Assembly: GCA_025055035.1 (NCBI GenBank)
Contig: JANWZB010000017.1
Location: 1 to 34,439 of the forward strand
Reading direction: 5' to 3'
Origin: Candidatus Kapaibacterium sp.
Lineage (GTDB): Bacteria > Bacteroidota > Ignavibacteria > Kapaibacteriales > UBA4661
DNA length: 34,439 nucleotides
The notes beneath the pieces were generated by a model. The model was given only the letters and a program-made list of their open reading frames with translations, was not told the DNA's origin and did not search any database. Each line of letters opens with the position of its first letter. Within the stretch, counting starts at the first letter, position 1. Shown here in pieces: positions 7,022 to 27,951 of this stretch. The position numbers and the translations under genes were made by a program.

Positions 7022-8425
7022 ATGCCTCTTATACGCTCTATATCTGGAGTACGCGCCACACTAGGAGATGCACTCACACCATTTATCGTTGCTGAATACA
7101 CTGCTGCATTTGCGTCATATCTTCCACCAGGTATTATCGTTGTTGGGCGGGACGGTCGTCCATCGGGAGAATGGATTGAAAAAATTGTCTGTGCTACTCT
7201 TGCTGCATCAGGGCGTGAAGTGCTAGAGCTTGGTATTGTTCCCACGCCAACAGTTCAATTGTTTGCCGAACACCAAGCAATGGCTGGTGGAATCTCTATA
7301 TCTGCTTCTCATAATCCCGTGGAATGGAATGGTCTGAAGTTTCTCAATAATAAGGGAATGTTTCTTAGCGCCGAAGAAAACGCTCAATTTTGGCAATGTC
7401 TTGATGAGCGCCAATTCGCTTTCGTACCTAACCAACACGGCGAAAGCATGACGACGCATCAAAACCCAGCAGCACACCATACAGAATCTATTATGCTCCT
7501 TCCACTATTTTCCAATTCAGGAAATGTGGAACTTATTCGGAATGCACACTTTCGCGTTGTTGTTGATGCTGTGAATGCTGCAGGCTCGCATTTTATTCCT
7601 TACATTCTCAAAGCATTTGGCTGCGAGGTTATTCCTCTCTATTGCGATGGAACAGGTATATTCCCTCACACACCTGAGCCCATTCCTGAACATCTTGGCG
7701 ACCTCTCGAAAGCCGTTGTAGAGCATCACGCAGACTTTGGGATTGCTGTAGATCCTGACGCCGATCGCCTTGTTCTCGTCGATGAACGCGGTCGTGTTGT
7801 GTTCGAAGAAAATACTGTCGTTCTAGCAACCCTTGCTGTTCTACGCAATAAACAGTATTTTGGCGAGCAAGCATATGCACCTGTTGTCGTGAATATGTCC
7901 ACAACGCAGGCAGTAGAGGACATTGCAGCCCATTATGGCGTGAAAGTTATACGCACTGCTGTGGGAGAAATTAACGTTGTGCAGGGAATGTTAGAGCATG
8001 GCTCGATCATTGGCGGCGAGGGCAGTGGCGGGGTCATTCTACCCACATGTCATGCTGGGCGTGACTCGCTAGTAGGAACGGCTCTTATACTACTGCTCTT
8101 GGCACAAGTCAAACAAGAACGCCCAAACATGACCCTTTCCAGCATTGTTAGCGCTCTGCCACGATACTGTATGATTAAGCACAAGCAGCCTTTTCATGGT
8201 GATGTACAGAGTATTGCTACAAGTATTCTCAAGCGTTATCCTGACGCTATTGCTAATACTGAAGATGGTCTACGGCTGAGCTTTGCTGACGGATGGATAC
8301 ACCTGCGCACCTCGAATACCGAACCAATCATCCGTCTTATTGTTGAAGCAAAAACTCAAGCAGAAGCAGAGCGCCTTGCAAGTACGTGCCTTGCTGTGAT
8401 ACGTGACAATACCTTCTATCACTAA
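7022..8425 (+). CDS. glmM: Phosphoglucosamine mutase
   Basis: This 467-residue alpha-D-phosphohexomutase probably converts glucosamine-6-phosphate to glucosamine-1-phosphate for UDP-GlcNAc, the precursor of peptidoglycan and lipopolysaccharide. The four family signatures are present in order. The phosphoserine loop SASHNP has its catalytic Ser at 96. The Mg-binding DPDADR has Asp244, Asp246 and Asp248. The sugar-recognition loop GEGSGG is at 332-337, and the phosphate-binding RTSNTEP at 429-435. The N-terminal LIRSISGVRATLG and the overall length match the GlmM form common in Bacteroidota, although phosphomannomutase or phosphoglucomutase activity cannot be excluded from motifs alone. It is first in a plus-strand operon; cdsA starts 15 nt after its stop. 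The ATG follows GGAG with about 12-nt spacing. Confidence 0.9.
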   Translation: MPLIRSISGVRATLGDALTPFIVAEYTAAFASYLPPGIIVVGRDGRPSGEWIEKIVCATLAASGREVLELGIVPTPTVQLFAEHQAMAGGISISASHNPVEWNGLKFLNNKGMFLSAEENAQFWQCLDERQFAFVPNQHGESMTTHQNPAAHHTESIMLLPLFSNSGNVELIRNAHFRVVVDAVNAAGSHFIPYILKAFGCEVIPLYCDGTGIFPHTPEPIPEHLGDLSKAVVEHHADFGIAVDPDADRLVLVDERGRVVFEENTVVLATLAVLRNKQYFGEQAYAPVVVNMSTTQAVEDIAAHYGVKVIRTAVGEINVVQGMLEHGSIIGGEGSGGVILPTCHAGRDSLVGTALILLLLAQVKQERPNMTLSSIVSALPRYCMIKHKQPFHGDVQSIATSILKRYPDAIANTEDGLRLSFADGWIHLRTSNTEPIIRLIVEAKTQAEAERLASTCLAVIRDNTFYH

Positions 8426-8440
8426 ATCTTTAGGCTTTCT

Positions 8441-9352
8441 GTGAGCAATACTGCTACTCGAATCATTGTCGCACTTATTGCAGCACCGATTATTATTGGT
8501 CTTGTCATTGCAGGACATTGGTGGTTTTGGGGATTTGTTCAACTGCTAGCATTGTTATCGCTTAAAGAACTCTACGACTTAGGTACAAACACTTCAGCTT
8601 TGCCACAATATTGGACTGGATATGCGGGAAGCCTGCTCATAGGTCTATACTTTATGCTTGCTGATACCGCTCCACAAGCATTTGCACAGCTTTTGTTTCC
8701 TGCTCTTGTTCTATCATTTGTACTTGGGGTACTCATCATTGAGCTTCTGCGCAACAAACCACATCCTCTGTGGAATGCAGCCATTACCATTTTTGGCGTT
8801 ATGTACATAGGTACGTGTGTTACAAGTCTTGTAGGACTCCGCATGGCATTTACAGGCAGAATGCTTAGTGCACCTGTTCTGCAGCCCTTCCTTTCGAACT
8901 CTAGTCTTGAAGAACGCTTACACATTGGCAATGTATGGGGGACGTGGCTTGTGTTTGTAACATTTCTAAGCATCTGGACATGTGATTCTCTTGCCTTTTT
9001 CGCTGGCAAGGCATTTGGCAATCATAAGCTGTTTCCACGTGTTAGTCCCAATAAATCATGGGAAGGAGCAATTGTTGGATTTCTTGGTGCATCAATTCTA
9101 TTTCTTGTTTTATCGCGCTACTTGCTACCCTTTCTACCACCTCTCCATGCTGTTGTGCTCGGTGGTATTGTAGGAGCTATCGGACAGCTTGGCGATCTTG
9201 TTGAGTCTCTCTTTAAACGCGACGCTGGCGTCAAAGATAGCTCAAACATTATTCCGGGGCATGGGGGTGTTTACGATCGCTTCGATGCAGCGATGTTCGT
9301 TGCTCCTGTCGTGTATTTGTACATTCACTTTTTCTTACTGTTTGCTCGATGA
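8441..9352 (+). CDS. cdsA: Phosphatidate cytidylyltransferase (CDP-diacylglycerol synthase)
   Basis: This 303-residue polytopic inner-membrane enzyme makes CDP-diacylglycerol from CTP and phosphatidic acid, the branch point of phospholipid synthesis. Several hydrophobic helices precede the conserved cytoplasmic segment DSLAFFAGKAFG (182-193) and SPNKSWEG (202-209). The full CdsA signature is at 256-282: SLFKRDAGVKD, then PGHGGVYDRFD. The start is GTG, 15 nt after the glmM stop, with no clear Shine-Dalgarno site. The last codons overlap the next gene as ATGA, so CdsA and the acyltransferase are translationally coupled. That pairing is logical, since PlsC-type enzymes make the CdsA substrate. 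Confidence 0.94.
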   Translation: MSNTATRIIVALIAAPIIIGLVIAGHWWFWGFVQLLALLSLKELYDLGTNTSALPQYWTGYAGSLLIGLYFMLADTAPQAFAQLLFPALVLSFVLGVLIIELLRNKPHPLWNAAITIFGVMYIGTCVTSLVGLRMAFTGRMLSAPVLQPFLSNSSLEERLHIGNVWGTWLVFVTFLSIWTCDSLAFFAGKAFGNHKLFPRVSPNKSWEGAIVGFLGASILFLVLSRYLLPFLPPLHAVVLGGIVGAIGQLGDLVESLFKRDAGVKDSSNIIPGHGGVYDRFDAAMFVAPVVYLYIHFFLLFAR

Positions 9353-10165: not shown

Positions 10166-13100
10166 CTATCGTTTGAGCAGCTTTTCTGTGTAGCGTCGTT
10201 CTCCATCGGTGAGTTCGATAATATACACACCTGACGGAAGAGCACTTACATCAAGCTGCTGCGTGAATACACCTGCCCCTACAGCCTGTGTAAAGAGGAC
10301 TAGCGTTCTACCAAGCACATCGGTTATGCGTACATGCAACTGTGCTGGTTTTGGCAGATGTGCTTCAAAGCCTACTATACCATCTACCGGATTCGGATAT
10401 ACACGGGCTACCATTGCTTCAAGGTTAATGACCTCACGCACGCTCACTTGATATGCATCAAAGAGCGTAAAGTTTGTACCGTCTGTGTTTGTTACACGAA
10501 TGCGCGGGTCGCTGAGGAAGAATCCTGCTGGAGCAACAGCAATAATTTGGTTATCCGTTATACTAATGATTCTCAGCGGCACACCACCCACTGTTACCGT
10601 TGCACCGGGACGGAAGTTCGAGCCAGTGATTGTAAAGGTAACATCGAATGGATAGGAGGGGCGTAGCGTACGGGGTGATACGCTTGTGATAATTGGACAG
10701 ACCATACAGCGCACTTCGATTGTTCCTGGCGGCATTGCACGCTGCCCATCTGGATTGATAACATCAATCGTTGCATTCCCTTCTTGGTTATTGACATTAG
10801 CAGGCACAAAGGCAATGACTTGTGTTGCTGTTACAGAAATAACCTGTAATGCTCTACCATTAAAGAGTACTTGGAAGCCCGGCAATGGCTGCCCTTGTGG
10901 ACCCGGAGTAAAGTTCCGTCCATTAATCGTAATAAAGAACGGTGTCGCCGTGGCATTTGTTACTGACGGGAATACCGATGTAACAACTGGCGCATTCGGC
11001 TGCCCAATCGTAAATGTTGCTGTCGAGGACAAACCGTCCGGGTTCGACAACGTTACAGGAAACACACCTGTACGATTCAACGATGCAGGAACTTGAACAA
11101 TGACCTGGGTATCAGAAGTTGAGATGATTGTCAAGTTCGAGTTGTTAAATGTTACAGTCAATCCTGCACGGAACCCGGAACCGTTGATTGCAAGCCAGAA
11201 TGGGAAAACCGATGCAGCTGTTACGCTCTGACCTGGCATTGTGCCACTTGCTGTAACAACACTCGTAATTGTTGGTGGTGGATAGCCCACTGTAAACAGT
11301 ACCGCATTCGACAACCCGCCAGGGTTGGTAATACGAATTGGGAATGATCCAAGAGTTGTTAGCAGACTTGCAGGAATCACTGCAACAATCTGCGTTGTCG
11401 AGCGTGCAGGGTTTGACAACACTTGTAGCGGAATATTGTTGAACGTCACCTCTGCATTCAGGAAGAAGCCTGAACCTGTAATAGTAATCGTTACAGCACT
11501 CGAGCCAACAATAGCACGAGGTGGCGATATACGCTCAATGAATGGTCTTCCTGCATCGTTGATTCTAATTGTTCCCTGGACTTGCTGACCATCGGAATTC
11601 CGTACTACGATGTTGAGCGTTGCACCAACTTGGTTCAGCGATGCCGGGATAAGAACTTGTAATTGTGTCGGGCTTGCAGATACTACAGTCAGCGGTGTAC
11701 CATTCGCTGTTACTGTTGTTCCTGCAAGACCGAAAAAGTTTGTACCAGCAATTGTCGCAACAAAGCCAACACCTGTTGCAGTCGTTACACTCGGTGTAAT
11801 ACTAGTCAGTGTTGGAGCAGGACTTTGGATAAGCTGGAATGGAAAGCTCGTGTATTGACCATCAGCATTTACCACTATAATAAAGCGCTGACCGGGCATG
11901 TTATTAAATGTACCTGAAATAGTAGCTCGAATCTCCGTTGGCGTTACAGTTTGTACTGCGATACGCAGTGCTGGACTAATCGCCTGCGGAGCGTTCACAA
12001 TTGAAAAATAGACACCTGATATATCGCCTGTTCCCGGCATCAAATTGATGTTGAAGTTCGAGCCATTGATAACAATCGGTACATCTCTTCCGTTTGCAAT
12101 AGCACTACCTGGCGTTACTCCGCTAATAATAGGTGGAAGATTATACTGGAACAGCTGTGTGGACGTTACCGTACCATTCAGTGTCGCAATAGTAATTGGT
12201 GCCAGACGTGGTGTTGTCGCCGTGCCAGTAATCCGAACGAATAACTGTGTCCCTGATGGATTTACCGAATCTGCAACAGCAGTCAATCCGGCAACATTCA
12301 CCGAAATAATATTTGAGAGTGAACCAAAGTTTGTACCATTGATTCTGATAACTGTTCCTGTTCCGCCTTGTGTTGGAGTAAAGGAGCTAATTGTTGGTGG
12401 TGTACCGATCGTGAACGGAGTTGCGGATGTTCCCGAACCTGCAGGATACGACATACCCGCTGGACGTGACACAGTGATTGGACCAGTTATAGCACCAGCA
12501 GGCACAACTGCCTGAATTACTCCATCGTTTACTACAGTAAAGCTCGTAGCAGGTACGCCACCAAACGTAACACTATTAACTCCTGTAAAGTTGAACCCAG
12601 CAATTGTGACAACTGTTCCCGGACCACCAAATCCCGGTGAGAAGTTTGTAATAGTTGGGAAAAGTGCCCCTGCTGATAGCGTTACAATCACCGATGTTGA
12701 CTGAATTGGCCCCATGCCCGCTGTTGTCGAGACAACAAGCTGTACTTGCGTTGTTGGACTACTTGGATTTGTCCATGTTACTATCACATTATTCAGCGTG
12801 ATGCCACTCTGGTTTACAAATACACCAGAGAATCCACCACTGACAGTAAAGGTTTGTCCAGGAATTACAGGCTGTGCAGATAAACCTACCGAAATATTTG
12901 AAAGCGATGGTGATGGTACACCAAAAGCATCAAACAATCCAAGATTGATATTGAATGGTACACCGTTGTTAATGGTTAAATTTCCACCGTTTACTCCTTG
13001 CGTCCCTGTCGAAGAAATTTGGCTCATCGCCAGTGCAACTGGAACGCTTGCTCCTGTCGTGAGCGTTATCGTTGCTTCTGTAAAGCTAATACCGCTAAAG

Positions 13101-16100
13101 ATCAACGGTGGATTGCTTGGTGTCAGACGAATTGTTACCTGTATAGGACCGGGAACTGTTGGATTTATCCAGTTGAGCCGTGCACCTTCCAAGCGTGCCT
13201 GACGAGCGCCAAAAATGAGTGGAACAGCTGTATTACCACTGAGGGTTACTGTTTCCGTACCCGGCACAACATTAACAATAGACAGAGTCATTGGATTACC
13301 ACCACCAAGCGCTAGCACAGAAGCAGCATTAAAGAAGCCGAAATCAATGTTAAATGGACGACCGCTCGGAATTGTAAGATTGCCACCATTGATCCCCGCT
13401 GACCCAATAGCTGGGCTTGTATGCCCAGAAATACCAACATTCGGGTTAAACGATGTGTGTGTCGCAATTGAGCCTGTTGTCGCTACCCATATTTGTGCTG
13501 TTGTGGAGAGCAGAGTTGTCTGACCACTGACCACACTGAGTGTCAAAATAGCAGGTTTCACAGCTGGTGCATTATCATTATGAATAATGCGCGGAAAGAG
13601 CGAGCCTGTGCCATCTGACGTAATAGTCGTCGCCGTCGTCCCATCAATGCTAAACACGTCTGTCGGATTTACAGGGGCAATCGAAAGCTGTACCTGTGTT
13701 GGATTTATTGAAGGACGAATAACCGCACCATAGTCTGCAAACGAGGCAAAGTTCACACGTATCACGCTGTTTGACATTATTGGATTGCTCATTGTAAACG
13801 CACCATTGTTAATGCCTTGATTCGATAGCGCGGGATCGAGGATATCGCCAGAATTCACCGAATACCCAAGCTTTGAAGCACCCGGCACTGGGAAAACTGT
13901 ACCGGTCGTGCTAATTGTTACCGTTACTGTTGTCGAGGCAAGCACAGGCGAACCGGGCTCACCACCAGAAAGCACACGTAATCGCACAAGTGCTTTCGTT
14001 ATTGCAGGACCATTACCAGGCGGATTCGTCCAATTAAAGATAGGTCGCACACTGCCCGTAGCTACTCCAGCATTAAGTGTTGCTGTTGTTGGTGCTTGCG
14101 GTGTACTGGGCGTTGCAACAAAGTTTGCACTGGGCATTGTAAGGCCTGGAATAGGTTCTATCGTCGTTTCAAATACCGTTGTCGCCGTTGTCGGCGCTAA
14201 AAAGTTAGAGTTGGAATACAAGCCAAAATTGATTGGAAATGAAATACCGCCCGTGATATTAAACTGACCAAGCCCACCGCCATTAAACCCTAGTGTTCCT
14301 GTACTCGCATTTTGCACTTGCGAATAGGCAATTGTGGAAGGACGCAGTGGCGGTGCAAGCACTGTTACAACAAGCGATGCCGATGTTAGCGTGCCAGTCG
14401 GCTCGTACAAGCGCAGAATTGCTGTCGTGCTTGCTGCATTTCCCGGATTCAACCAATCAAACACAATCGAAGACATTGTACTGCTTACGGGTCTTCCAAG
14501 CGCTGGGTCAAGCGTTGTGCTAACTGTTCCTGAGGTATTGAATACTGCTGTTTGACCCGGCGCAGAGATTAACTGCCCGAATACTGTAAACGACGCTACA
14601 ACGGGCGACAGCTGGTTGAGACCGTTGAATGCACTAAAGTGTATTGGGAATGGTGTTCCACTAGTGATGGTCAGATTAGGCGTACCAAAGCTTGTCGGTG
14701 GAGTAGGGTTAAAGCCATTATTACCAGTTGGCGACGTATTGCTTGCAGCCAGAATAATTGCTGACGGCGGGTTGAGAACCACAAACGGCGTATTGCTGTA
14801 CGAGGTAATAGGATTGACGCTTGTTGCACTGTAGTAAGTACCAATCCCTATCATACTTGCTCCACCAAGCGCAGCATTTAGTAGGTTGTCATATCCTGTG
14901 CCGTTCCACCGCGCTGGAAAGCCATTTGCTCGTACAAATCCCGGCGATTCATGGCTTACTTCCCATGTGTATATCATCTTATCGCCTGTACTTGTACCGC
15001 TATTTTTGTTCACTGTCCACTGCACATTCACACGCTGTGGATATGTTGTTGACTGGTGTGTGATAGTGTGCGACGCATTCACTGAATAGAAATCCGATGC
15101 TGCGCTACCATTGTAGATGGCAACAGGAGCATACAGCAATGCTGTACCGAGTGTGTTCGTGGTTCCTACAGGGAAACTTCGCCATGCCCCTGCTGCAATC
15201 GGCATAATCAAACGCGACCCGGCCGCCGTTTCAATAAAGTTATTGTCTGCTACTGGCGTGTGTGTTGCATTTGTGGCATTTACTGTGAATTGTACATTCG
15301 GTTCGAGGCGGATGTTCCCACCTCCTGTACCCGGCCCCCAGTTCGTACTATTCAAAGTAAGTGTTCCGTTGACTACTGTTGATGTAGTAATCACTACTAG
15401 TGGGTTGGTAACCGGGAAGGTAGAATTGACAGTCATATTATTGAGCTGATTCGCCATGCTGTTCATACGTACAACGGAGCGGCGTGGCGACGTAAACGTC
15501 AGATTCGAGGATGCAGAGCCACTAAGTACCCCCGAACCCGAGCGAATAAACCCACCAACGGTATTATTTCCTGTAAAGCTTAGTGAGTTCCCATTCATCT
15601 GCAAGTTTGCTGTGCCATCGAGAAATAAACGTCCTGCATCGGTAATTGCTGTTGCAGCTTCAAAGGTTGCGCTCGTACCTGAAGCGAGCGTTACCGTTGC
15701 TCCTGTTATTGTTAAGCAGCCAATAAACGGTGCACCACCACTTGCATCAAATCGTAAGGTTGCTGGTGTTGAATTGTTGTACTCAATACATCCATCGCTA
15801 GCCATACCCATACCAACACGGAACATACCAAGTGGTGATGGAGAGTTGAGCGGTGCATTCATCGTGAAGCGAACGCCTGCTGTATGCAAATCAATACCAC
15901 CATTGAGCAACTGAATCGAAGCGCCCGATAGTGTCTTGTTTGCATCAATTTGCACGAGGTTGTCGTTAATACCTGGAAGCGTTGGATCTCCGTTTGAGAA
16001 TCCCTTTTGGACAATTAACGTACCGTTGAAGAGATGTGGAAATTCAATTGGCGACGTGCTCACTGTGCGCTGACCACCATAGCGCAACGTTGAGGTCGGA

Positions 16101-19100
16101 GCGAGATATTCTACGGGATTGCCCGTTACTGCGCCCAAACCAACACAAATCAAATCCAGTGTACATGTCGTTCCAACTGCAAGCGCACCAGCATTATTGA
16201 GCGAAGGAAATGGCATCACTGTTTCTCCTGCAAGGCGCAAGCGTCCATTGACAAGAACACGACTACCTGCACCAATACTCGCTGCATTAACATCTCGGTA
16301 CAGTGTTAGGGTATCCGTTGAAGCGATAATCAAGCCAAAGCTATTATCTGCGCTCACAATATTCAGCCCATTAGCCGCCACTAGTGTTAAATTGCGTCCA
16401 GAGCTTAGGGTTACTCGCGGTGGCGCTTGCCCCATAGTCAGTGTTTGTCCAATAGTTAAGCGTCCTAGATAACGCTCCAATTCATTATCACTTGCAAAGC
16501 GCAACGTCGAGGGTCCTTGCCCGTTAATAATTAGCTCCGACGGAGTCATTGCGCCATCATTACTACCAACAAATGTCCCGTTTGGAGCAACTGCTGAAAC
16601 AACGGAAACTTGGCTTGTCGGCGCAGGACCGGCGATGAGCGTCATGTTAGGACCAATGATGAAACGACCAGACTGCACTGTAATGTTGTTGCGCACTGTT
16701 ACTGATACCCCCCCCATTGTACTGATAATAAAGTCTCTGTTTGCACCCGTACGGTTGATAAGTAAGCTTGCGGGAAGCGTCACGGGAGATGGTGCTCCCC
16801 ATTCGTTTGTCGCTGCTGGGGTTGTTGTTACAGCTGTGGAGAGAGCATCAGCATATGCTAATATTGCTGGAGTAGAGGGACTCAAGGCAGTATACGGTGC
16901 AGGTGTGTTGTATAGCAGTGTTGTCATCATGCCTTTGGTGAACGTTCCGCCCGCCATTTGTAGCGTTCCAGCACTTGCAACCACGAACTCTGCTGTATTC
17001 ATATTGACAGTGTGATTCAATGTAGAGCCAGGATTGATGCGGAGCGTCCCAAACACAATGCCACGCTCATGGTTTCCTGCAACAGTTGGAGCGATGGAGA
17101 GGTTTGTACCACCCAGCGTCAACGTTGAACCTGTTGCGATATGTAGCGATTCGCCAAAGAATACGTCTTTGTCTGCCATCACCATTGTTTGCCGCAAGTT
17201 CAGTGTTGTCGGCTGAGCAAATGTCGGCGAAGCACCACCCATAACGGTTAAGCGCTGAATCGACGCTGGAATATTTGTGGAAATAACCGGTGCATCAATA
17301 GAACGGTCGAAGATTGCCCAGTCGTTTATTCCGGGGGGTGCTGCGCTACCAGGTGTTCCATTCGAGGAAGATGCCCAGTTCAGCGTGTTCCCCCAATCCG
17401 TATTGTTGCCACCTACCCAGTAAATCGGAAATAGAGCATTCGAGACAATAAATATTGTGTTGGAGAGACTACCATTGAACGTCGCTTGCAGTGTACGTGG
17501 AGGACCGATAACGGGAAGCATTGTTGGTAGCACGTTTGCATAGGATGCTCCCGTCCAGCGGCGAATTGTTGTAAGCGAAGGGTCAGCTGTCAGCGAAGTA
17601 TTGAAGGGTACAGGCTCATCTGCCGTATTCCATTGCAGTGTTAGAGGTCCGTTGTATGATGGGGTGCCTTTGCTTATGGTCCATTGTGCATTCACACTAC
17701 GCGTTGTCAGATTCGAGGGAATGCTCGGAACGTTCACAATCGCTGTTGTTACGCTCACAATATATGTCTCGTTTGGCGTAGGATTGTTGATAGTTATCGG
17801 CAAATAGCGTGCAGGTCCTGCACCAGTATTTACACCGACTGGGAATGTGTAAGCAGCAACACCCATATTTTGAATAATCAAGCGCCCACCTTGCGAAGCA
17901 TCAATAAAGTTACCCATTGTATTAGGAGCACCACCAGCAATCACAGCATTGCTCAATGTTAAGTCTGCCCCGGGACCAAGCTGTAAGACTGCATTCCCAT
18001 TCAACGTCAGTGCTGGCGCGCTTGTAACGCTCAGTGGTGTGCGCAGCGACACTAAGTAGTCTGTTACACCTGCAGCAGCAGGCTGTACGTAGAGATTCGC
18101 GAGAACCTGACCACCGGAAGCCATGCGCAGATATGAGCGCGCTTGGGGTGACTCAAAAATGATTTGCGAGCCAGTATCGCCGCTAATAGCACCTGTATTC
18201 GTTACCGGAATATGCCCACCTTGACCAACACCTGCACCGTAACCATTCATTCCTCGAAAAATCAATGTTGCAGCATTGCACACAAGATTTCCAGTGTTAC
18301 TGAGCACCAACTGACCGTTATTGTTTGGTGCTCCCATCATATCATATGCTGCGGTATAGGTTGAGCCATCGATGATTACTTGACCGCTTAGGGTTAGGTT
18401 GCCTGTGTTTGTTACACCAAAATGGTTGAACACAACAAAGGTGCTGCTTGTGGTACGAACAGATGTAGGAACAGTACCGTTATACAAAAACGCTGAAGCT
18501 GATGCCGCATTCGACCCGGCAATATAGCCGCCTGTGCCTAGCGTTACTGTACCATTCAGTATCATTCTGTTCCCGTTCATACCAATACCACCCGAAACAA
18601 GGTTCAGATTACCATTCATGGTAACACTATTATTTAGCAGAACCATGTTCAAGTCAAGCGTCGGCGTTCCTATGCGGTTTACTGTTATGGAGCCGTTCAT
18701 TGTGGTTGGTATCTCTTGGGGCGTGGTAGGACGCGCAGCAAATGTCATAAAATCAGCATCCTGATAGTCGGCAACAGATGTCGCATCAGTATAAAAAGTA
18801 TTGCCCGAACCTGGTGTAATTTGCTGAGCACTACCCCAAAACTGAATGCGGCCACCTGATCCAATAACCAGACCTGACGATGTACCTGTACCAGAAACAT
18901 TCGTGTTGTTGAGCGTTGAGCCTGTAGAGATAATGAGCGTACCATTGACAATCAGCCGTGCTGTTGTAAAGTTTCCAATGTGGCTCACAGAGTTGTTTCG
19001 AAGAGTTACTCGCCGACCAGCACTAATTGTAACTCGTCCCCCTTGATTCAATCCTGCTGTAGCACCAGCATCAGCAACTTCGAGACCGCTCATTGCACTG

Positions 19101-20323
19101 CCAAAAATTTGCATATCCGAGTTAATGCTTACGTTCAGCGTAGCTACTCTATTGCGTAGCCGCGTAAGCATTGCCGGACCTGTGAAGGCAAGCTCGGAAG
19201 TGGTCGCTCCAACGGGGTTCATGGTATTCAGTTCTTCATAGATAAGCTCGATAGGCATCGCTGGATTGTTCACTGTTGTGATCGTTCCACCAGCAATCAT
19301 ACGGCTCGCGGCCATTGTTACCACTGTTCCCGGTGGTATAGAAAGTACGGAAACAACGTTTTCAACAGTGAGTGTACCATGCAAATTATAATTCGCAGGA
19401 GTCAGTTGCGTTACAGCAGAGACGCTACGACGCACAACAAGGTTACCAAGCATCATAGCAACCTCATTTGTTCCTGGCATTGGCACTGTTTGTGTTACAT
19501 TATCTGGTCTGTCATAGACAAGCGAACCACGTGCTCCAGAGAGAGCATATTGAATGGGACCATTATACGTGCCACCTGACATGCGTAGCGCACCACCATC
19601 TTCTACGCTAAAGTTCTGAGCAACGGCATTTTGGATAGCTCCAAACGTTCCAGGAAACCCTGTGGCAGCAACAGAGATACTCCCAAAAATACGGGCAGCC
19701 ACGGGAGCACTACCAGCATTTGCACTGATAGCAAGTGTTATATTGCTTCCAACAACTAGCGTCGAATTTGGTGCAACAATTAGTGGAGCATTGATTGCAT
19801 CACCCATAATGCCATTCAAGCTCAGCGTTGATGCCGCCGCATCGCTCAGTGTAACAATGACATTCGACTGTACAACAACACGCCCAACTTGGAACATTGC
19901 ACCACCAAAGCTGATAGTTGGATTCCCCGACAAGTTGTCGAAAATAGCAACGTCCGTAATACCGGGAACACCAGCACCACCAGCACCACCAGAGGTTGTG
20001 CTCCACAGAGCAGGATTATTCCACGCGCCACTTCCAACGCGAAAGAACGTTGCTGCATTCGTCATACCGACAAGTGTGCATACCATAAGCAGAGAAATCC
20101 ACACATGGGTCATACGAGCTGTTGCCCGTGTTGCTTTAAGGATAGAACGAAAAATGCGCTGCAGCATAGATATATTCTGCTGCATCGCCTCTAAGACCTC
20201 CAATGAAGCACGAGCATGCACCGCCGAGTTTAACGCGCTGCCTCGCTCTGCCTCATCGAATGCACACAGTGCAACGCCCCGTACAGGTGTGCGCTGCCGA
20301 GTAGCAGAGTGTAGAGAGTTCAT
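10166..20323 (-). CDS. Giant T9SS-secreted surface protein with duplicated beta modules, ~140-aa repeats and IPT/TIG domains
   Basis: This protein of about 3385 residues is probably a cell-surface adhesin or matrix protein. The start chosen is the ATG at 20323, which has GGAG 6 nt upstream; a TTG four codons earlier is less likely. The first hydrophobic Sec segment (ISLLMVCTLVGMTNA) begins only about 75 residues in, after an Arg-rich n-region. Two similar modules follow, about 870 residues each, opening with FFRVGSGAWNN and YWVGGNNTDWGN and closing with an RSVNAQWT / QRVNVQWT domain; between these are repetitive Gly/Asn/Thr-rich beta-helix-like strands. Next come five ~140-residue repeats with an NGGNLTI-type core and about eight IPT/TIG domains. 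The last ~80 residues (YPNPVDG... SALPSGVYIIEL... EKLLKR) are a T9SS type A sorting domain. The ligand is unknown; no enzymatic motif was seen. Confidence 0.92.
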   Translation of the reverse strand: MNSLHSATRQRTPVRGVALCAFDEAERGSALNSAVHARASLEVLEAMQQNISMLQRIFRSILKATRATARMTHVWISLLMVCTLVGMTNAATFFRVGSGAWNNPALWSTTSGGAGGAGVPGITDVAIFDNLSGNPTISFGGAMFQVGRVVVQSNVIVTLSDAAASTLSLNGIMGDAINAPLIVAPNSTLVVGSNITLAISANAGSAPVAARIFGSISVAATGFPGTFGAIQNAVAQNFSVEDGGALRMSGGTYNGPIQYALSGARGSLVYDRPDNVTQTVPMPGTNEVAMMLGNLVVRRSVSAVTQLTPANYNLHGTLTVENVVSVLSIPPGTVVTMAASRMIAGGTITTVNNPAMPIELIYEELNTMNPVGATTSELAFTGPAMLTRLRNRVATLNVSINSDMQIFGSAMSGLEVADAGATAGLNQGGRVTISAGRRVTLRNNSVSHIGNFTTARLIVNGTLIISTGSTLNNTNVSGTGTSSGLVIGSGGRIQFWGSAQQITPGSGNTFYTDATSVADYQDADFMTFAARPTTPQEIPTTMNGSITVNRIGTPTLDLNMVLLNNSVTMNGNLNLVSGGIGMNGNRMILNGTVTLGTGGYIAGSNAASASAFLYNGTVPTSVRTTSSTFVVFNHFGVTNTGNLTLSGQVIIDGSTYTAAYDMMGAPNNNGQLVLSNTGNLVCNAATLIFRGMNGYGAGVGQGGHIPVTNTGAISGDTGSQIIFESPQARSYLRMASGGQVLANLYVQPAAAGVTDYLVSLRTPLSVTSAPALTLNGNAVLQLGPGADLTLSNAVIAGGAPNTMGNFIDASQGGRLIIQNMGVAAYTFPVGVNTGAGPARYLPITINNPTPNETYIVSVTTAIVNVPSIPSNLTTRSVNAQWTISKGTPSYNGPLTLQWNTADEPVPFNTSLTADPSLTTIRRWTGASYANVLPTMLPVIGPPRTLQATFNGSLSNTIFIVSNALFPIYWVGGNNTDWGNTLNWASSSNGTPGSAAPPGINDWAIFDRSIDAPVISTNIPASIQRLTVMGGASPTFAQPTTLNLRQTMVMADKDVFFGESLHIATGSTLTLGGTNLSIAPTVAGNHERGIVFGTLRINPGSTLNHTVNMNTAEFVVASAGTLQMAGGTFTKGMMTTLLYNTPAPYTALSPSTPAILAYADALSTAVTTTPAATNEWGAPSPVTLPASLLINRTGANRDFIISTMGGVSVTVRNNITVQSGRFIIGPNMTLIAGPAPTSQVSVVSAVAPNGTFVGSNDGAMTPSELIINGQGPSTLRFASDNELERYLGRLTIGQTLTMGQAPPRVTLSSGRNLTLVAANGLNIVSADNSFGLIIASTDTLTLYRDVNAASIGAGSRVLVNGRLRLAGETVMPFPSLNNAGALAVGTTCTLDLICVGLGAVTGNPVEYLAPTSTLRYGGQRTVSTSPIEFPHLFNGTLIVQKGFSNGDPTLPGINDNLVQIDANKTLSGASIQLLNGGIDLHTAGVRFTMNAPLNSPSPLGMFRVGMGMASDGCIEYNNSTPATLRFDASGGAPFIGCLTITGATVTLASGTSATFEAATAITDAGRLFLDGTANLQMNGNSLSFTGNNTVGGFIRSGSGVLSGSASSNLTFTSPRRSVVRMNSMANQLNNMTVNSTFPVTNPLVVITTSTVVNGTLTLNSTNWGPGTGGGNIRLEPNVQFTVNATNATHTPVADNNFIETAAGSRLIMPIAAGAWRSFPVGTTNTLGTALLYAPVAIYNGSAASDFYSVNASHTITHQSTTYPQRVNVQWTVNKNSGTSTGDKMIYTWEVSHESPGFVRANGFPARWNGTGYDNLLNAALGGASMIGIGTYYSATSVNPITSYSNTPFVVLNPPSAIILAASNTSPTGNNGFNPTPPTSFGTPNLTITSGTPFPIHFSAFNGLNQLSPVVASFTVFGQLISAPGQTAVFNTSGTVSTTLDPALGRPVSSTMSSIVFDWLNPGNAASTTAILRLYEPTGTLTSASLVVTVLAPPLRPSTIAYSQVQNASTGTLGFNGGGLGQFNITGGISFPINFGLYSNSNFLAPTTATTVFETTIEPIPGLTMPSANFVATPSTPQAPTTATLNAGVATGSVRPIFNWTNPPGNGPAITKALVRLRVLSGGEPGSPVLASTTVTVTISTTGTVFPVPGASKLGYSVNSGDILDPALSNQGINNGAFTMSNPIMSNSVIRVNFASFADYGAVIRPSINPTQVQLSIAPVNPTDVFSIDGTTATTITSDGTGSLFPRIIHNDNAPAVKPAILTLSVVSGQTTLLSTTAQIWVATTGSIATHTSFNPNVGISGHTSPAIGSAGINGGNLTIPSGRPFNIDFGFFNAASVLALGGGNPMTLSIVNVVPGTETVTLSGNTAVPLIFGARQARLEGARLNWINPTVPGPIQVTIRLTPSNPPLIFSGISFTEATITLTTGASVPVALAMSQISSTGTQGVNGGNLTINNGVPFNINLGLFDAFGVPSPSLSNISVGLSAQPVIPGQTFTVSGGFSGVFVNQSGITLNNVIVTWTNPSSPTTQVQLVVSTTAGMGPIQSTSVIVTLSAGALFPTITNFSPGFGGPGTVVTIAGFNFTGVNSVTFGGVPATSFTVVNDGVIQAVVPAGAITGPITVSRPAGMSYPAGSGTSATPFTIGTPPTISSFTPTQGGTGTVIRINGTNFGSLSNIISVNVAGLTAVADSVNPSGTQLFVRITGTATTPRLAPITIATLNGTVTSTQLFQYNLPPIISGVTPGSAIANGRDVPIVINGSNFNINLMPGTGDISGVYFSIVNAPQAISPALRIAVQTVTPTEIRATISGTFNNMPGQRFIIVVNADGQYTSFPFQLIQSPAPTLTSITPSVTTATGVGFVATIAGTNFFGLAGTTVTANGTPLTVVSASPTQLQVLIPASLNQVGATLNIVVRNSDGQQVQGTIRINDAGRPFIERISPPRAIVGSSAVTITITGSGFFLNAEVTFNNIPLQVLSNPARSTTQIVAVIPASLLTTLGSFPIRITNPGGLSNAVLFTVGYPPPTITSVVTASGTMPGQSVTAASVFPFWLAINGSGFRAGLTVTFNNSNLTIISTSDTQVIVQVPASLNRTGVFPVTLSNPDGLSSTATFTIGQPNAPVVTSVFPSVTNATATPFFITINGRNFTPGPQGQPLPGFQVLFNGRALQVISVTATQVIAFVPANVNNQEGNATIDVINPDGQRAMPPGTIEVRCMVCPIITSVSPRTLRPSYPFDVTFTITGSNFRPGATVTVGGVPLRIISITDNQIIAVAPAGFFLSDPRIRVTNTDGTNFTLFDAYQVSVREVINLEAMVARVYPNPVDGIVGFEAHLPKPAQLHVRITDVLGRTLVLFTQAVGAGVFTQQLDVSALPSGVYIIELTDGERRYTEKLLKR
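10450..12660 (-). repeat. About eight tandem IPT/TIG domain repeats (protein level)
   Basis: Each unit is about 85-100 residues and opens with a P-x-I-x-S-x-x-P motif followed by an I-x-G-x-N/G-F strand, for example PTITNFSPGFGGPGT... IAGFNF, PTISSFTPTQGG... INGTNF, FIERISPPRAIVG... ITGSGF and PIITSVSPRTLRP... ITGSNF. A conserved QVIVQVPASL / QIIAVAPAGF segment closes many units. These are immunoglobulin-like TIG folds, frequent in bacterial surface proteins. They form the stalk directly before the sorting domain. Confidence 0.85.
12660..14770 (-). repeat. Five ~140-residue repeats with an NGG-LTI-PF-I core (protein level)
   Basis: Five units start near 14770, 14340, 13880, 13455 and 13045, with a spacing of roughly 395-460 nt. 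The core is visible in each: a short Ser/Thr lead, then G-x-N-G-G, an LTI-type strand, PF-x-I-x-F and a G-x-F or A-F turn. Examples are GINGGNLTIPSGRPFNIDFGFF, split here as GINGGNLTI and GRPFNIDFGFF, and GVNGGNLTI with GVPFNINLGLF. I do not recognise a named family for this unit. Unit length is approximate. Confidence 0.7.
14775..20050 (-). repeat. Tandem duplication of a ~2.6-kb beta-rich module (protein level)
   Basis: Module A (about 20050 to 17430) and module B (about 17429 to 14775) have the same order of parts. Each has a W-containing opening (VGSGAWNNPALW; WVGGNNTDWGNTLNW) ending in PGI-x-D-x-AIFD, then many short N-G-x-L-x-x-x-T beta strands. Each closes with a domain starting at YLPITINN or YAPVAIYN, passing through VNAQWT or VNVQWT, and ending in a W-x-G-x-x-Y-x-N-x-L motif. 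Lengths are nearly equal (about 2620 and 2655 nt). The opening resembles the YWVGG-type motif known from T9SS-secreted Bacteroidota proteins. Confidence 0.7.
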
Positions 20324-20329
20324 ACTATT

Positions 20330-20333
20330 CTCC
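20330..20333 (-). promoter_or_regulatory. Shine-Dalgarno site deciding the giant-gene start
   Basis: On the minus strand GGAG is followed by 6 nt and ATG at 20323-20321. This favours that ATG over the in-frame TTG at 20335, which overlaps the GGAG itself. Confidence 0.7.
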
Positions 20334-20562
20334 AAAAAATGTAGGTTGTGAATGAAAAAGAGGGTTATGAATGTTATATAATGCGATGTTGCTGCAGACT
20401 GCAGACTGTTTGTCGTGTACTACTTCACCGAAATGTATATTTTGGAATATGCTAGTGAATAGGAAGCAAGTACGCCTAGGGAAATAAGCAAAAGATATGC
20501 CAAAGGAATATATTTATTGGGCAAACCATAACGATTTGCGCATTACTCTACGTATAAGAAAC

Positions 20563-21276: not shown

Positions 21277-21996
21277 GTGGTTCTCATACTTTGTCTCACT
21301 TTGGTTGCATCATCTGCCATGCATTTATACATCACACAGCGAATAATTCTCTGGTGTATATCTCTATGGCATTCACTGTACGTGCACTGTTTAACATATT
21401 TTCTCATAGCGTTAATAGTTGCTTCGATAGTTGCTTCCTGCCATACTAGCATTCGTTTTAGCTCGCAGAATCCCACACAACCTGTCGCTGCACGTAGCAC
21501 TACACCGAGCACTGCTCCAATGAATGGCAAAAGTCGTGCCAACATACCGTTATCTCGTTCTACAAAAGCACAGCGTTCGTACTACCATGAACATTCAGCA
21601 TATACACCGAAGGAAACAAAACTGCTCGAAAGTGCTGAGCGCTGGCTGGGCACGCCGTATCGGTATGGAAGTAGCTCACGAACAGGAACGGATTGTTCAG
21701 GCTTCGTTATGCGTGTTTATGAAGAGCAGGGTATTAGCCTTCCCCGCAGCACCAAAGATCAATTCTTGGTTGGTCGAGCAGTACACCCTCAGGAGTTACG
21801 TATTGGCGACCTTGTCTTCTTTAATACAACTGGTGCTGGAGTGTCGCACGTAGGAATCTACATAGGTAACGATACACTCATCCATGCATCGAGCAAAAGC
21901 GGTGTTACAAAGCAATCCCTCTCTGAACCCTACCTCGCACAAACGTATATTGGCGCACGGAGAGTGTTCAATGATCTGCAACAGTATGGGCCTTAG
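21277..21996 (+). CDS. NlpC/P60 (C40) family cysteine peptidase, probable lipoprotein
   Basis: The C-terminal ~125 residues (115-235 of 239) form an NlpC/P60 domain, a peptidoglycan gamma-D-glutamyl-diamino acid endopeptidase fold. Cys140 is in the DCSGF motif, His191 in GVSHVGIYIG and a third polar His203 in LIHASSKSG. A hydrophobic stretch ending VASC (Cys55) is a good lipobox, so the mature protein may be a lipoprotein with a Ser/Thr-rich linker before the catalytic domain. The start is uncertain: GTG at 21277 is given, but ATG at 21319 or GTG at 21382 would place the signal peptide closer to normal length, and none has a Shine-Dalgarno site. A second hydrophobic stretch lies further upstream. 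Its stop overlaps that of the convergent kinase by 4 nt. Confidence 0.88.
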   Translation: MVLILCLTLVASSAMHLYITQRIILWCISLWHSLYVHCLTYFLIALIVASIVASCHTSIRFSSQNPTQPVAARSTTPSTAPMNGKSRANIPLSRSTKAQRSYYHEHSAYTPKETKLLESAERWLGTPYRYGSSSRTGTDCSGFVMRVYEEQGISLPRSTKDQFLVGRAVHPQELRIGDLVFFNTTGAGVSHVGIYIGNDTLIHASSKSGVTKQSLSEPYLAQTYIGARRVFNDLQQYGP

Positions 21997-24900
21997 ATAG
22001 GAACATTTGTTGTAGTTTCACTTTGGTCTTGCTTGTTAGCAGTACTGGTGTTTACAGGCAATTCCACATAAAATGTTGCTCCGCGCCCAAGTTCTGACTC
22101 ACACCACACATGTCCGTTGAGCGCTTCAACTATACGCTTGACAATGTTTAGTCCTAGACCAGTGCTATGCTCTCCACCAGTCGGACGCGCCGATAAGCGC
22201 GCGAATTTCCCAAAAAGTTTTGCTTTGTCTTCATCGCTCAAACCGGGACCTTCGTCTTGCACTGCAATGCGAGACTTGTCACTCAAAGAATCTACGCGTA
22301 CAATGACCCTTGTCCCAAACGGTGAGTATTTAATAGCATTGGAAATGAGGTTGTCACAAACCTCTGCAAGCAATGTTGCGTCGGAACATAACTCTATGTG
22401 TTCCTTCTGTGCAACGAACGTTAGCACAATATTCTTCGCAGCCGCGCGTTCGATATAATCATTCGTTATCTTGCGCACAATATCCACAAGATTGAGCTGT
22501 ACTGGCTGAATGTTCAGCATGCCCGATTCAATTGCATTGATGTCAAGAAGATTTGTAATGATATTCATCATGCGATTGACTAATTCCACAATTGAATCAA
22601 GCTTATCGAGTACATCACGTTTCGAGAGCTGGTCGTAGTAACGCTGCAGCATAGAGACTGTCATACGGATTGCTGCAAGAGGATTTTTAAGATCGTGTGC
22701 AGCAATCCCCAAAAACTCATTCTTTTCTTGATTCAACGCGTGCAACTGAGCATTGCGTTCCTGCAGTTCGGTGTTCGCAAGCTCTATTTCTCGGGCTTGC
22801 TCTGCCAAGATATTCTGCTGACGCTGAATTTCTTCATTGGCTTGCAAAAGAACAAAGTTTTTCTCATTAAGTTCACTGTTAGCCAGCTCTATCTCTCGGG
22901 CTTGCTGGTCTAGTATTTCCAGCTGGCGCTTAATTTCTCGATTTTGCCGTTCAATTTCCTCAGCGTGCTCCTCAAGCTGGCGCGTTCTCTGGCGCACTAT
23001 ACCTTCCAGCATTGCCGCTCGCACTCGCAAACGCTGTGTCCGCCATTGCACGAGCAATACTCCTAAACCCACTGCACCGATTCCACATAACCCACCAAAC
23101 CACCAGGTTTGATAGAAGAATGCTCCAATTTCTAGGGTTAGCGTATCACCTTCCTCATTCCACACACCATCATTGTTGCATGCTTTGACGCGAAATACAT
23201 ATGTTCCCGGTGGTAGATTCGTGTAGAATGCGTTTCTTTGTCCTCCTGCATCTATCCAGTCGTCATCAATACCCTCAAGCTTATACTTGAACTGCACACG
23301 CTCTGGGGCAGCAAAGCATATCGCCGTATAGCGAATTTCTAAGCGTTGCGTTCCAGCAGGGCAGTACACTGCGCGCTGGGTGTTTATCCATATACCTTGA
23401 CTCGTATCACAATGAACACTTTGGCAATACACTGGTGGTGGTACGGTATTACGAAAGTACTGTTCAGGACGAATAATCACAATTCCCTTCAACATTGGTA
23501 TCCACAACTCCCCTGTACGGGTTACATGTGCAAAGCTCGGAACGGTGCACGTATTTGTTTGCAATCCATCGGAACGTGTGTACAGGCGGCAGCTCAGCTT
23601 TGTACCAGACTGCGCACACTCTAGCAAAGCAGACTTTGGTACACTAATAATTCCACGTTGGCATGTCATCCAGACCGTTCCAAGTGTATCTTCAAGAATA
23701 TGGAAGATGTTCTCTTCTGGCAAGCCATCTTTTGTAGTAAATACACTTGGCTTACCATTTTTTACCATCGTGATACCACCATTGCATGGAATCCAAATTT
23801 CATCACCTCGTGGTGATTCACTAGCCTGGAATGCATCATTACTCGGAAGTCCTGAGCCAGCATAGAAATGAGTCTTTATATGATGCGACGGGTCAATCAT
23901 TAGCACTCCACCGCCATTCGTGCTAATCCACATTCTCCCAGCACGATCCTGCATGATACCCAAAATACTATTTGATGGTAAATCTCCACGTTGGGTAGTC
24001 ATAGATGTGTAGCGACCGTTCTTGAAAAGGCTGATACCTCTCACTGTACCAATCCACAATGTACTATCGCGGGCAACGCACAAGCTGCGGATTTGATCAT
24101 CCACAAGACCGTCGCGTGTTGTATACGTTGTCAGACGACCGGAAGGAGCAACTTTGTGCAATGCTCCATATGTCCCTATCCAAACATTTCCCACACTATC
24201 TTGTACAAGTGTTCGTGCCAACGATGAGACTAAGCCATTATTCATTGTATATGTCGTTGCTCCTTGCCGTGTAACATGCTGCACACCACGATATGTTGCT
24301 ATCCACATAGCTTCTTTGCTATCCTGCAGAAGTGCATACACAACAGGATACATAAGTCCATGGCTTACTGCTATAGCGCCAAAGAAACTACGGCGCAGGC
24401 GGTTAAGTCCACCGTAATATGTGCCAACCCAGATATTTCCTTCAGTATCTACCTCAAGCGAACGGATAGAATCATCGGTCAGACCATTGCTCGATGTCAA
24501 GCGGAAACACTGTGGTGTAGATGTTGATTTCGTCCAGAGCAGAAGTCCTTCCTCTGTACCGATCCACAAGTTACCAGAACTATCCTCTACAAAATCGTGA
24601 ATTGGTATCGGCGCAGCAGCAAGTAGAGCAGTATCTCGCACAATACGACCATCGGCAAAGCGGCATACTCCCTTACGCGTACCAATCCATATCGTTCCTG
24701 AGCGGTCTTCATATACGCACTCCACGCTAATATGTGGCAGCCCATGAGATGTATCGAACGTTCGCGCAACAGCTGCCTGAGAACGCGAAGCCCAGTAGAA
24801 AAGACCTCGGCGTGTCGCCTGCCAGAAGCTTCCCTTCCTATCGATCAGAATATCCTGTGATATTTCTGGAGTAGCAACGCTGTATAGAGTATCTCGATAT

Positions 24901-25496
24901 ACGGAAAAATCCTTTGTGTAGGGATTTTCTTTCAGAGCATATACCCCATTGTTCGCCACGCAATATACCGTTCCATAGTCTGGGCTCGACGCGACACGAT
25001 TTTCTGTCCATCCCCGAATCATCTTGTCGCGGAATCCATAGGCTGAATCGACACGATGTATCACACCATCATTGCGTAACACAGCAATCCCCCCTTCTTG
25101 AGCACCAAACCACAGATGACCGCGTTTGTCTTCCCAAAGCGTTGTAATTACATTCGTGCTTAGTTGCGGAGTTACTGAACGATGAAACCATCGCCGGGTT
25201 ATACCATCAAACCGCACAACACCGTTAAATGAGGCGAACCACAAATATCCATCGCGAGTTTGCTTCAAGTCAAGAATCGCATTGTGCGGTAAGCCATTAT
25301 CTGTTGTCCATGCGTCAATAACAATATGTCGCAATGGCGAGTTACCATACACGTATTCTACTAATGCACGGCTGCTATAGCGTTTTCCATCATCAGCAAT
25401 GAGCTCTGTGTCAACAATATTATCAGCAATAACCAGGAATACCAATATGCCAAGTATTCGAAGAACAGTATGTGTGCAGTGTAAAGGATATATCAT
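21993..25496 (-). CDS. Propeller-sensor histidine kinase (Reg_prop / Y_Y_Y / HisKA / HATPase)
   Basis: This two-component sensor is about 1167 residues counted from the ATG at 25496; a TTG start 19 codons upstream is possible. After a signal peptide (MIYPLHCTHTVLRILGILVFLV) come roughly a dozen repeats of the form GL-x-x-x-x-I-x-x-L-x-x-D-x-x-G-x-x-W-I-G-T, building periplasmic beta-propellers (about 60-690). A Y_Y_Y domain follows (715-790; YKLEGIDDDW, NLPPGTYVFRVKA). A single TM (about 795-815) and a long coiled coil with two near-identical AREIELANxEL segments lead to HisKA with the phospho-His934 (AAHDLKNPLAAIRM). The HATPase has an N box DNLISNAIKYSP, a G1 DEGPGLS and a G2 STGLGLNIV. There is no receiver or AraC-type output domain, unlike the hybrid kinases of Bacteroides, so a separate response regulator is needed; none is in this window. 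Confidence 0.93.
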   Translation of the reverse strand: MIYPLHCTHTVLRILGILVFLVIADNIVDTELIADDGKRYSSRALVEYVYGNSPLRHIVIDAWTTDNGLPHNAILDLKQTRDGYLWFASFNGVVRFDGITRRWFHRSVTPQLSTNVITTLWEDKRGHLWFGAQEGGIAVLRNDGVIHRVDSAYGFRDKMIRGWTENRVASSPDYGTVYCVANNGVYALKENPYTKDFSVYRDTLYSVATPEISQDILIDRKGSFWQATRRGLFYWASRSQAAVARTFDTSHGLPHISVECVYEDRSGTIWIGTRKGVCRFADGRIVRDTALLAAAPIPIHDFVEDSSGNLWIGTEEGLLLWTKSTSTPQCFRLTSSNGLTDDSIRSLEVDTEGNIWVGTYYGGLNRLRRSFFGAIAVSHGLMYPVVYALLQDSKEAMWIATYRGVQHVTRQGATTYTMNNGLVSSLARTLVQDSVGNVWIGTYGALHKVAPSGRLTTYTTRDGLVDDQIRSLCVARDSTLWIGTVRGISLFKNGRYTSMTTQRGDLPSNSILGIMQDRAGRMWISTNGGGVLMIDPSHHIKTHFYAGSGLPSNDAFQASESPRGDEIWIPCNGGITMVKNGKPSVFTTKDGLPEENIFHILEDTLGTVWMTCQRGIISVPKSALLECAQSGTKLSCRLYTRSDGLQTNTCTVPSFAHVTRTGELWIPMLKGIVIIRPEQYFRNTVPPPVYCQSVHCDTSQGIWINTQRAVYCPAGTQRLEIRYTAICFAAPERVQFKYKLEGIDDDWIDAGGQRNAFYTNLPPGTYVFRVKACNNDGVWNEEGDTLTLEIGAFFYQTWWFGGLCGIGAVGLGVLLVQWRTQRLRVRAAMLEGIVRQRTRQLEEHAEEIERQNREIKRQLEILDQQAREIELANSELNEKNFVLLQANEEIQRQQNILAEQAREIELANTELQERNAQLHALNQEKNEFLGIAAHDLKNPLAAIRMTVSMLQRYYDQLSKRDVLDKLDSIVELVNRMMNIITNLLDINAIESGMLNIQPVQLNLVDIVRKITNDYIERAAAKNIVLTFVAQKEHIELCSDATLLAEVCDNLISNAIKYSPFGTRVIVRVDSLSDKSRIAVQDEGPGLSDEDKAKLFGKFARLSARPTGGEHSTGLGLNIVKRIVEALNGHVWCESELGRGATFYVELPVNTSTANKQDQSETTTNVPI

Positions 25497-25718
25497 ATAG
25501 TCGCTGGGCAGAAACGCTACAGAAGGGGGATGCAATGCAACCGAATATAGCAAAAAGGCTTATTGTACACACATTCTGTTTTTGGCAAGTTTTTAGTATC
25601 TTGCTTACCTTGCATCTCTTTCAGTAAAAGTTCTGTTTTGACACTCTACGCTGTTCCTTTCTCTCAGGTAACTTGAATAACAGGCATTACTACGCTCACT
25701 TCTTCTGTAGCCAGCATT

Positions 25719-27663: not shown

Positions 27664-27937
27664 TACAGACATTTGTCAATTTCTATTGTAATACTACTGC
27701 ACAGTAGTGCACTTGCTCTACATATCCATTATGATCCTGCTGTCAGACTCGATAGAATAGCAGACATTTGCAGCAGAACTCCTCACGCTGTTTCTCCTAT
27801 AGTCTACGCTCGGTTTTTCATCGCAGCTGCATTCAATAAATATTTATTTGAAACGTTTAGCCACATAGCACGTATTATTGCACATCGTCATTTCGGGCGG
27901 TTCTCCTATATCTTACATTTTACATTCAATTTCATTG

Positions 27938-27943
27938 AAAGGG
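27938..27943 (+). promoter_or_regulatory. Shine-Dalgarno site of the chemoreceptor
   Basis: AAAGGG lies 8 nt before the ATG at 27952. It fixes the start at [10 protein letters not shown], where a Lys-rich n-region leads into TM1. The frame stays open for 93 further codons upstream, but those codons are not protein-like. Confidence 0.7.
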
Positions 27944-27951
27944 CTGAACGT

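Follow-up and report, generated by a model that had tools for sequence, protein, structure and literature searches.

The window is a stretch of 34,439 nucleotides from Candidatus Kapaibacterium sp., contig C88 (GenBank JANWZB010000017.1) of the source genome G000, which measures 3.16 Mb and is 99.5% complete. Its minus strand carries a giant gene with the following features:

10166..20323, minus strand: whole giant gene, 3,385 aa plus stop, a single intact frame
20114..20323, minus strand: N-terminal extension (residues 1-70), conserved, precedes the signal core
20054..20113, minus strand: hydrophobic signal-peptide core ending ...MTNA (residues 71-90), by eye
17423..20044, minus strand: head module A (residues 94-967), 874 aa, predicted beta-helix plus a smaller C-terminal domain
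14771..17422, minus strand: head module B (residues 968 to about 1851), about 885 aa, a homologue of A at about 30% identity
14345..14767, minus strand: repeat R1 (residues 1853-1993), by pairwise alignment
13886..14344, minus strand: repeat R2 (residues 1994-2146), by pairwise alignment
13463..13885, minus strand: repeat R3 (residues 2147-2287), by pairwise alignment
13040..13462, minus strand: repeat R4 (residues 2288-2428), by pairwise alignment
12656..13039, minus strand: repeat R5 (residues 2429-2555), predicted Ig-like fold
10433..12655, minus strand: TIG stalk, about eight domains (Pfam TIG, NCBIfam CoaZ_rpt_PGGG, NF058597)
10178..10402, minus strand: Por_Secre_tail, type IX secretion sorting domain, by profile match

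The minus-strand translation is free of stops from 20419 down to the stop codon at 10166-10168. Translation probably starts from the ATG at 20323, which has GGAG seven to ten bases ahead of it (20330-20333); the list of open reading frames gives a TTG at 20335 as an alternative. From N to C terminus, the protein consists of the extension, the signal core, modules A and B, R1-R5, about eight TIG domains, and the Por_Secre_tail. This architecture is established by computation. All parts of the module order proposed in the earlier sequence-only reading (A, B, five repeats, TIG stalk, T9SS tail) were recovered, and its limits of 12660-20050 agree within a few codons with where A starts (20044) and R5 ends (12656-12664). 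That the protein forms a long fibre showing its N-terminal modules may be fairly proposed from the domain order alone.

Several other genes of the window were recorded. At 1012-6621, on the minus strand, lies another giant with a T9SS tail, a subtilase of 1,869 aa that has ASH/HYDIN-like Ig domains. At higher coordinates than the giant gene lie a 1,186-aa sensor kinase (21993-25553, minus strand; Reg_prop propeller, Y_Y_Y, HisKA, HATPase), a short 4HB_MCP protein (25719-26366, plus strand), and a CHASE3/HAMP chemoreceptor (27673-29994, plus strand).

The secretion tail is strongly matched. Por_Secre_tail scores 51.1 bits (cut-off 27), the top of 52 such matches in the genome, and the NCBIfam type IX sorting model TIGR04183 scores 47.1 bits (cut-off 23). 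The stalk matches Pfam TIG in eight stretches (151.8 bits, cut-off 20.9, E 5.2e-45) and NF058597 in eight stretches, so that the TIG stalk and T9SS tail are borne out by both databases. The genome also encodes the SprA/Sov T9SS translocon (706.8 bits against a cut-off of 200). From the tail and SprA, the giant protein is probably exported and anchored by Sec and T9SS. The N-terminal extension gives one clear match per genome in all eight genomes of the genus (G000-G007), each at the start of the giant gene, and every other match in these genomes has an E of 0.057 or worse. Across seven distant pairs, the extension has 34-70% protein identity and 25-65% fourfold-site identity, the latter on only 19-38 sites. 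A hydrophobic core followed by a small-residue site was judged by eye in eight aligned sequences. Large autotransporters have extended signal peptides, and the extension (about 70 conserved residues; 20114-20323, minus strand) is like them in layout.

Modules A and B align locally over nearly their whole length with a score of 501; across 500 shuffles, the scores averaged 90 and peaked at 147. The duplicated module of about 870 residues noticed earlier is thus homology far beyond shuffle scores. Module A was modelled from its own sequence and 15 relatives, and the beta-helix prediction covers A only. The model (pLDDT 86.3, pTM 0.76) has a long run of short strands and then a small C-terminal domain at about model residues 745-874, judged by eye. 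Compared by VIA-align, it comes closest to EspP and pertactin, both at Z 14.3 (391 residues at 4.2 A for EspP, 374 residues at 4.5 A for pertactin), and the earlier suggestion of beta-helix modules therefore holds for A as a predicted structure. The model has the fold of an autotransporter-type beta-helix passenger, and this applies to the fold only. Foldseek gave no match with E below 0.001, the first being the Ag43-type 4kh3 (E 7.9e-3). By VIA-align, the Ag43 structure 7kob reaches Z 12.2 over 310 residues at 4.8 A, and 4kh3 and 7koh align at 12.8 and 14.6 A rmsd. Beta-helix lyases and phage depolymerases or tailspikes lie at Z 9 to 14. Since tailspikes and lyases score nearly as high as the passengers, the fold of A is supported but not a function.

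Sequence searches placed neither the head nor the repeat in a known family above chance. Neither a C-terminal autotransporter beta-barrel nor RTX repeats were among the four Pfam families matched by the whole protein (E up to 10), and no known toxin family was found in the whole protein in Pfam or NCBIfam. A search of the PDB returned no sequence relative of the head, only one chance match (E 0.33). A mobile or viral origin was considered and rejected, as a search with A of 50,697 phage and 72,556 plasmid records yielded nothing at E 1e-5.

The five repeats are recognisable at the protein level. Nine of ten repeat pairs are significant, with at most 4 of 500 shuffles reaching the score; R1-R3 is the exception (91 of 500). 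A DNA-level repeat search of the window did not detect R1-R5. The array had been described as five NGGNLTI/PFNI repeats, of which the number stands, but the exact NGGNLTI motif occurs only in R4 and R5, and R2 carries NGGGLG. The repeat of about 140 residues was also said to be unnamed, and in profile searches it stays so: the five repeats had only chance matches in Pfam (E 0.08-0.32), and the three of them searched against NCBIfam had no match.

A structure was predicted for R5 from its sequence and 36 relatives, an alignment that took in 37 of 41 repeats and omitted three of G009 (a genome from another genus) and the first of G004. A repeat-pair alignment was not used for folding, its second half being poorly aligned. 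The R5 model (pLDDT 87.9, pTM 0.78) is a predicted Ig-like beta-sandwich. Its best VIA-align matches are GH2 C-terminal domains (Z 9.3, 97 residues, 2.4 A), followed by the transcription factor-DNA complex 5d39 (9.2), RUNT (8.6), a fimbrial chaperone (8.4), STAT1 (8.4), and InvE (8.3), and these Ig-like matches are tied within about one Z unit. Foldseek places STAT2 first (E 6.6e-4). The earlier idea that the repeat may be an undescribed fold does not agree with this prediction. As modelled for R5, the repeat is an undescribed sequence family with a known type of fold.

In a tree of 45 repeats, R1-R5 cluster by position within the genus, each under a starred branch. This grouping rules out a recent expansion of the repeats within the genus. 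Repeats 1, 3, and 5 of G009 join R1, R3, and R5 under starred branches. Its repeat 2 joins R2 without a star, and its repeat 4 falls on a long branch beside the R3 group, not R4. The ordered array is therefore clear for the genus and partly older, as the G009 repeats fit the positional groups in part. The sole change in repeat number in the genus is a sixth repeat in G004, which belongs to the R1 group on a long branch.

The giant gene is whole in seven of the eight genus genomes compared; in G002 it is in pieces, with the extension, A, and part of B (657 residues) on one contig end. Named relatives of the gene all come from MAGs of Candidatus Kapaibacterium or Ignavibacteria. A profile built from the five repeats has matches in 16 of 61 relatives (all eight of the genus, one other of the family, and seven of the order), and a 37-repeat profile matches 3 of 296 genomes across the phylum, all three within the genus. 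Viral contigs yielded no relatives of the repeat with the R5 alignment. The repeat also occurs in other giant frames, in about one to five copies each. One such frame in the source genome (L019, G000:C226:2-11296), of 3,765 codons and open at the contig end, has two repeats at residues 3003-3263 and, by eye, an LRR-like stretch after them. Another, of 15,437 codons in a genome of the same order (G016:C58 83475-106895), has three weak matches (E 3e-4 to 1e-2).

Full-length A+B was found at a single locus in six of the seven genus genomes searched (G000, G001, and G003-G006; G007 was left out of this search), B of G002 being cut by the contig end. Silent head cassettes were considered and rejected, the other matches in G000-G006 being partial (up to about 270 of 896 positions; E 1e-14 or worse) in a search limited by MAG gaps. 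In the window, CdsA-like cytidylyltransferase and phosphoglucomutase-type genes (7022-9352) adjoin the giant gene. Judged by eye from frame starts, the same two genes stand beside it in loci L022, L023, and L025 (taken as G006, G007, and G001), and neither was seen next to it in L024, L026, and L028 (taken as G003, G004, and G005); L027 was taken as G009. From these neighbour differences, the locus seems to have moved.

Within the genus, the head and the stalk of the giant protein have incongruent histories, which is established by computation. The trees omit G002, which was kept in the identity table with A whole and 657 residues of B. G009, whose contig ends shortly after R5, was included in the trees and is outside the table. 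G004 and G005 are 98% identical in rpoB and 78% in the stalk, compared with 40% in A and 32% in B. The reverse holds for G005 and G007 (rpoB 88%, stalk 50%, A 74%, B 69%). The stalk of G000, the window's genome, groups with G007 and its head with G001 and G006. The latter two are alike in A (83-84%) and stalk (85%) and less so in B (59%), which indicates that a portion of a head can move by itself. Between G002 and G003, rpoB is 99.8% identical and the shared head is 95% (A) and 91% (B) identical. One main head type is found in G000, G001, and G006, and the other in G002, G003, G005, and G007.

Identities of rpoB and stalk correlate strongly across six genomes without G000 (r 0.97; 4 of 720 permutations as high), as do those of A and B (r 0.89; 3 of 720). 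The head follows neither of the other two markers, with r 0.19 for rpoB and A (174 of 720), -0.05 for rpoB and B (334 of 720), 0.30 for stalk and A, and 0.01 for stalk and B. G000 was left out of the main permutation test because its rpoB frame is doubtful; when it is included, r for rpoB and stalk falls to 0.52 (12 of 5,040 permutations). That frame (L030, G000:C13:519-2096) is short, at 775 aa, and its first part aligns badly.

Tree topology tests separate the same parts. AU p-values, which are optimistic because the clades were picked after viewing the identity tables, reject G004+G005 in A (7.2e-54) and B (2.3e-47) and G000+G007 in A (1.5e-5) and B (4.6e-7); for the stalk, they reject G005+G007 (1.6e-40), G003+G005+G007 (3.7e-5), and G000+G001+G006 (2.1e-5); and for rpoB, they reject G005+G007 (1.8e-100) and G003+G005+G007 (1.3e-3) but neither G000+G001+G006 (0.10) nor G000+G007 (0.13). 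The rpoB tree has G004+G005 at 100/100 and does not support G000+G007, the stalk grouping of the window. G004 is a long branch in the A tree, and G005+G007 in the B tree is at only 94/95, unstarred.

The positions of the breaks are best seen in G004 and G005. These sequences are near-identical across the signal core as far as ...LNMAQA, after which they switch abruptly, so the N-terminal limit of exchange in this pair lies at the signal-peptide cleavage site. Mature heads of one type open with either ATFFRVG or ATFFRIG, and those of the other with either QATYFWVG or QQTFFWVG; the G004 head opens with ATYYYIG. On the C-terminal side, the change falls around a PP.AII.AA motif at the start of R1, near the B/R1 border.

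Fourfold sites show the same partition. In the two close pairs, the extension is unusually conserved at these sites (77% in G004/G005 and 79% in G001/G006), and identity is 33% and 37% in the head, near the level of saturated pairs, 47% and 48% in the repeats, and 61% and 55% in the TIG stalk and tail. Head and stalk differ in both (Fisher p 6e-12 for G004/G005 and 5e-9 for G001/G006). No such difference is seen in G003/G007 (p 0.96) or G005/G007 (p 0.76), the latter having 39% in the head, 41% in the repeats, and 39% in the TIG stalk and tail. As most pairs are near saturation, fourfold sites can neither date the G005/G007 head nor distinguish transfer from long-kept alleles. Exchange tracts that extend past the head would be compatible with the rise in fourfold identity seen along the stalk, but this rise is weak (rho 0.09 in G001/G006) and has a similar slope (rho 0.10) in G003/G007, the pair with no head-stalk difference.

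The incongruence could reflect old polymorphism, with two or three head lineages that predate the genus, are kept by balancing selection, and are sampled one per species with little recent transfer. In keeping with this, the G009 head joins the G003/G005/G007 type in the A and B trees (in which G009 was set as the drawing outgroup), and heads of the same type are near fourfold saturation even in A of G001/G006 (36%, at 83-84% protein identity). However, the G005 head is nearer to those of G007 and G003 than its stalk is to theirs, by +24/+19 points (A/B minus stalk) for G007 and +14/+15 for G003. Same-type pairs without G005 give +4/+7 (G000/G001), +7/-6 (G000/G006), -1/-26 (G001/G006), and +7/+8 (G003/G007). 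The closeness of the G005 head points to exchange after the split, and we regard long-kept alleles as a possible but rather doubtful account. Recombination between head and stalk is needed either way. Chimeric metagenome contigs might also mimic head exchange, as giant genes with many repeats are known to be prone to misassembly and the named genomes are MAGs. Such an artefact is highly improbable, given that seven genomes (the window and six loci) keep a single open frame over both borders, the six named records bear different isolate names, and the two main head types recur in three and four assemblies. We infer that exchange, rather than long-kept alleles, lies behind all cases.

What the head does is a separate matter. 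Ag43-type proteins among the fold matches of A, and the tendency of A and B types to travel together, are consistent with a self-recognition adhesin in which heads clasp one another between sister cells and head types define aggregation partners. This is unlikely, as pertactin, EspP, tailspikes, and lyases score equally or higher, 4kh3 and 7koh align only at the large rmsd values given above, fold shows no function, and no surface for such contacts was found. The lyases, depolymerases, and tailspikes in the same lists would suit a secreted polysaccharide-degrading lyase or hydrolase whose types correspond to substrate specificities. A degradative head is very unlikely, though, since 16 head modules have no Pfam enzyme family at E 0.1 or better, no PDB sequence relative was found, and autotransporter passenger helices score as well.

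Exchange and display are best combined in a T9SS-displayed giant adhesin with a stalk inherited by the species and an exchangeable A+B head that sets binding specificity, and we consider this account probable. Adhesion and a ligand are suggested by the architecture only. The protein's extended signal peptide would direct it to Sec, and the type IX secretion system would then complete its export. The eight TIG and five Ig-like domains would act as a rod that holds the head away from the cell, and A and B at the far tip would bind an external target, for which a glycan or protein carried by another cell or particle is most likely. The stalk would pass down with the species while the head is replaced through exchange between species, limited by the signal-peptide cleavage site and a point near the B/R1 border and sometimes involving only part of the head. 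A change of partner would favour swapping the head alone. On this adhesin model, the head probably binds a ligand and its type would set the specificity.

A bolder proposal, which we hold only tentatively, is that A+B (1,760 residues) is a polymorphic recognition unit, with discrete types under diversifying selection that are exchanged across species with an N-terminal limit at the cleavage site and choose the partner of each Kapabacteria lineage, either a cyanobacterial host or, head to head, a sister cell. The T9SS/TIG/Ig-like rod would then be a standard holder. A member of the genus, Clear-D13, is described as assembled from a Dolichospermum enrichment culture (PMC7714850), which makes a cyanobacterial surface a reasonable first candidate partner.

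Little is known of the attachment of uncultured Kapabacteria to algae, to cyanobacteria, or to one another. Among the literature matches listed, in which subscription journals were mostly outside the scope, there was no earlier report of the giant protein and no described adhesin or means of attachment for Kapabacteria. Because the head is the part exchanged, it is the part likely to carry specificity, and the two main head types together with the G004 head provide a shortlist for binding work. The gene also offers a modular display system found in nature, one whose N-terminal border is clean.

Antigen 43 is an autotransporter that is not known to have a separate TIG or Ig-like stalk. By the A model, the head shares its beta-helix fold (PDB 7kob, 7koh), but Pfam and PDB searches of the head found no sequence relationship. 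Fap2 is likewise a long rod with a membrane-distal beta-helix tip, which in Fap2 binds ligands; however, Fap2 is an autotransporter (PMC12397386), whereas the giant protein has no matched autotransporter barrel. RTX adhesins such as AhLap (PMC12077191) share part of the logic but use type I secretion, in contrast to the T9SS tail and the lack of a Pfam RTX match here. CdiA is also a surface protein with an interchangeable region that sets partner specificity, a specificity that here would follow from the model. It differs in delivering a C-terminal toxin and in having a central variable binding region (PMC5371414), where the present protein has TIG domains and a T9SS tail.

Among the matches listed, the nearest published case found is that of the surface proteins Giant1-4 of Apilactobacillus kunkeei, where Giant1-5 measure 3,000-8,000 aa (PMC12863079). 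Giant1-4 carry a beta-solenoid at the N-terminal end of a long rod of repeats, and both exchange of beta-solenoid sequence between two genera and intragenic recombination are reported (PMC12863079). Exchanged tips on giant surface proteins are therefore already known in kind. The A. kunkeei proteins belong to lactic acid bacteria, have alpha-helical rods in Giant1-3, and are encoded in a multi-gene cluster (PMC12863079), unlike the single gene described here, with its TIG/Ig-like rod and T9SS tail. What sets the present case apart is the T9SS/TIG/Ig-like form, in which the N-terminal border of the exchanged head lies at the signal-peptide cleavage site.
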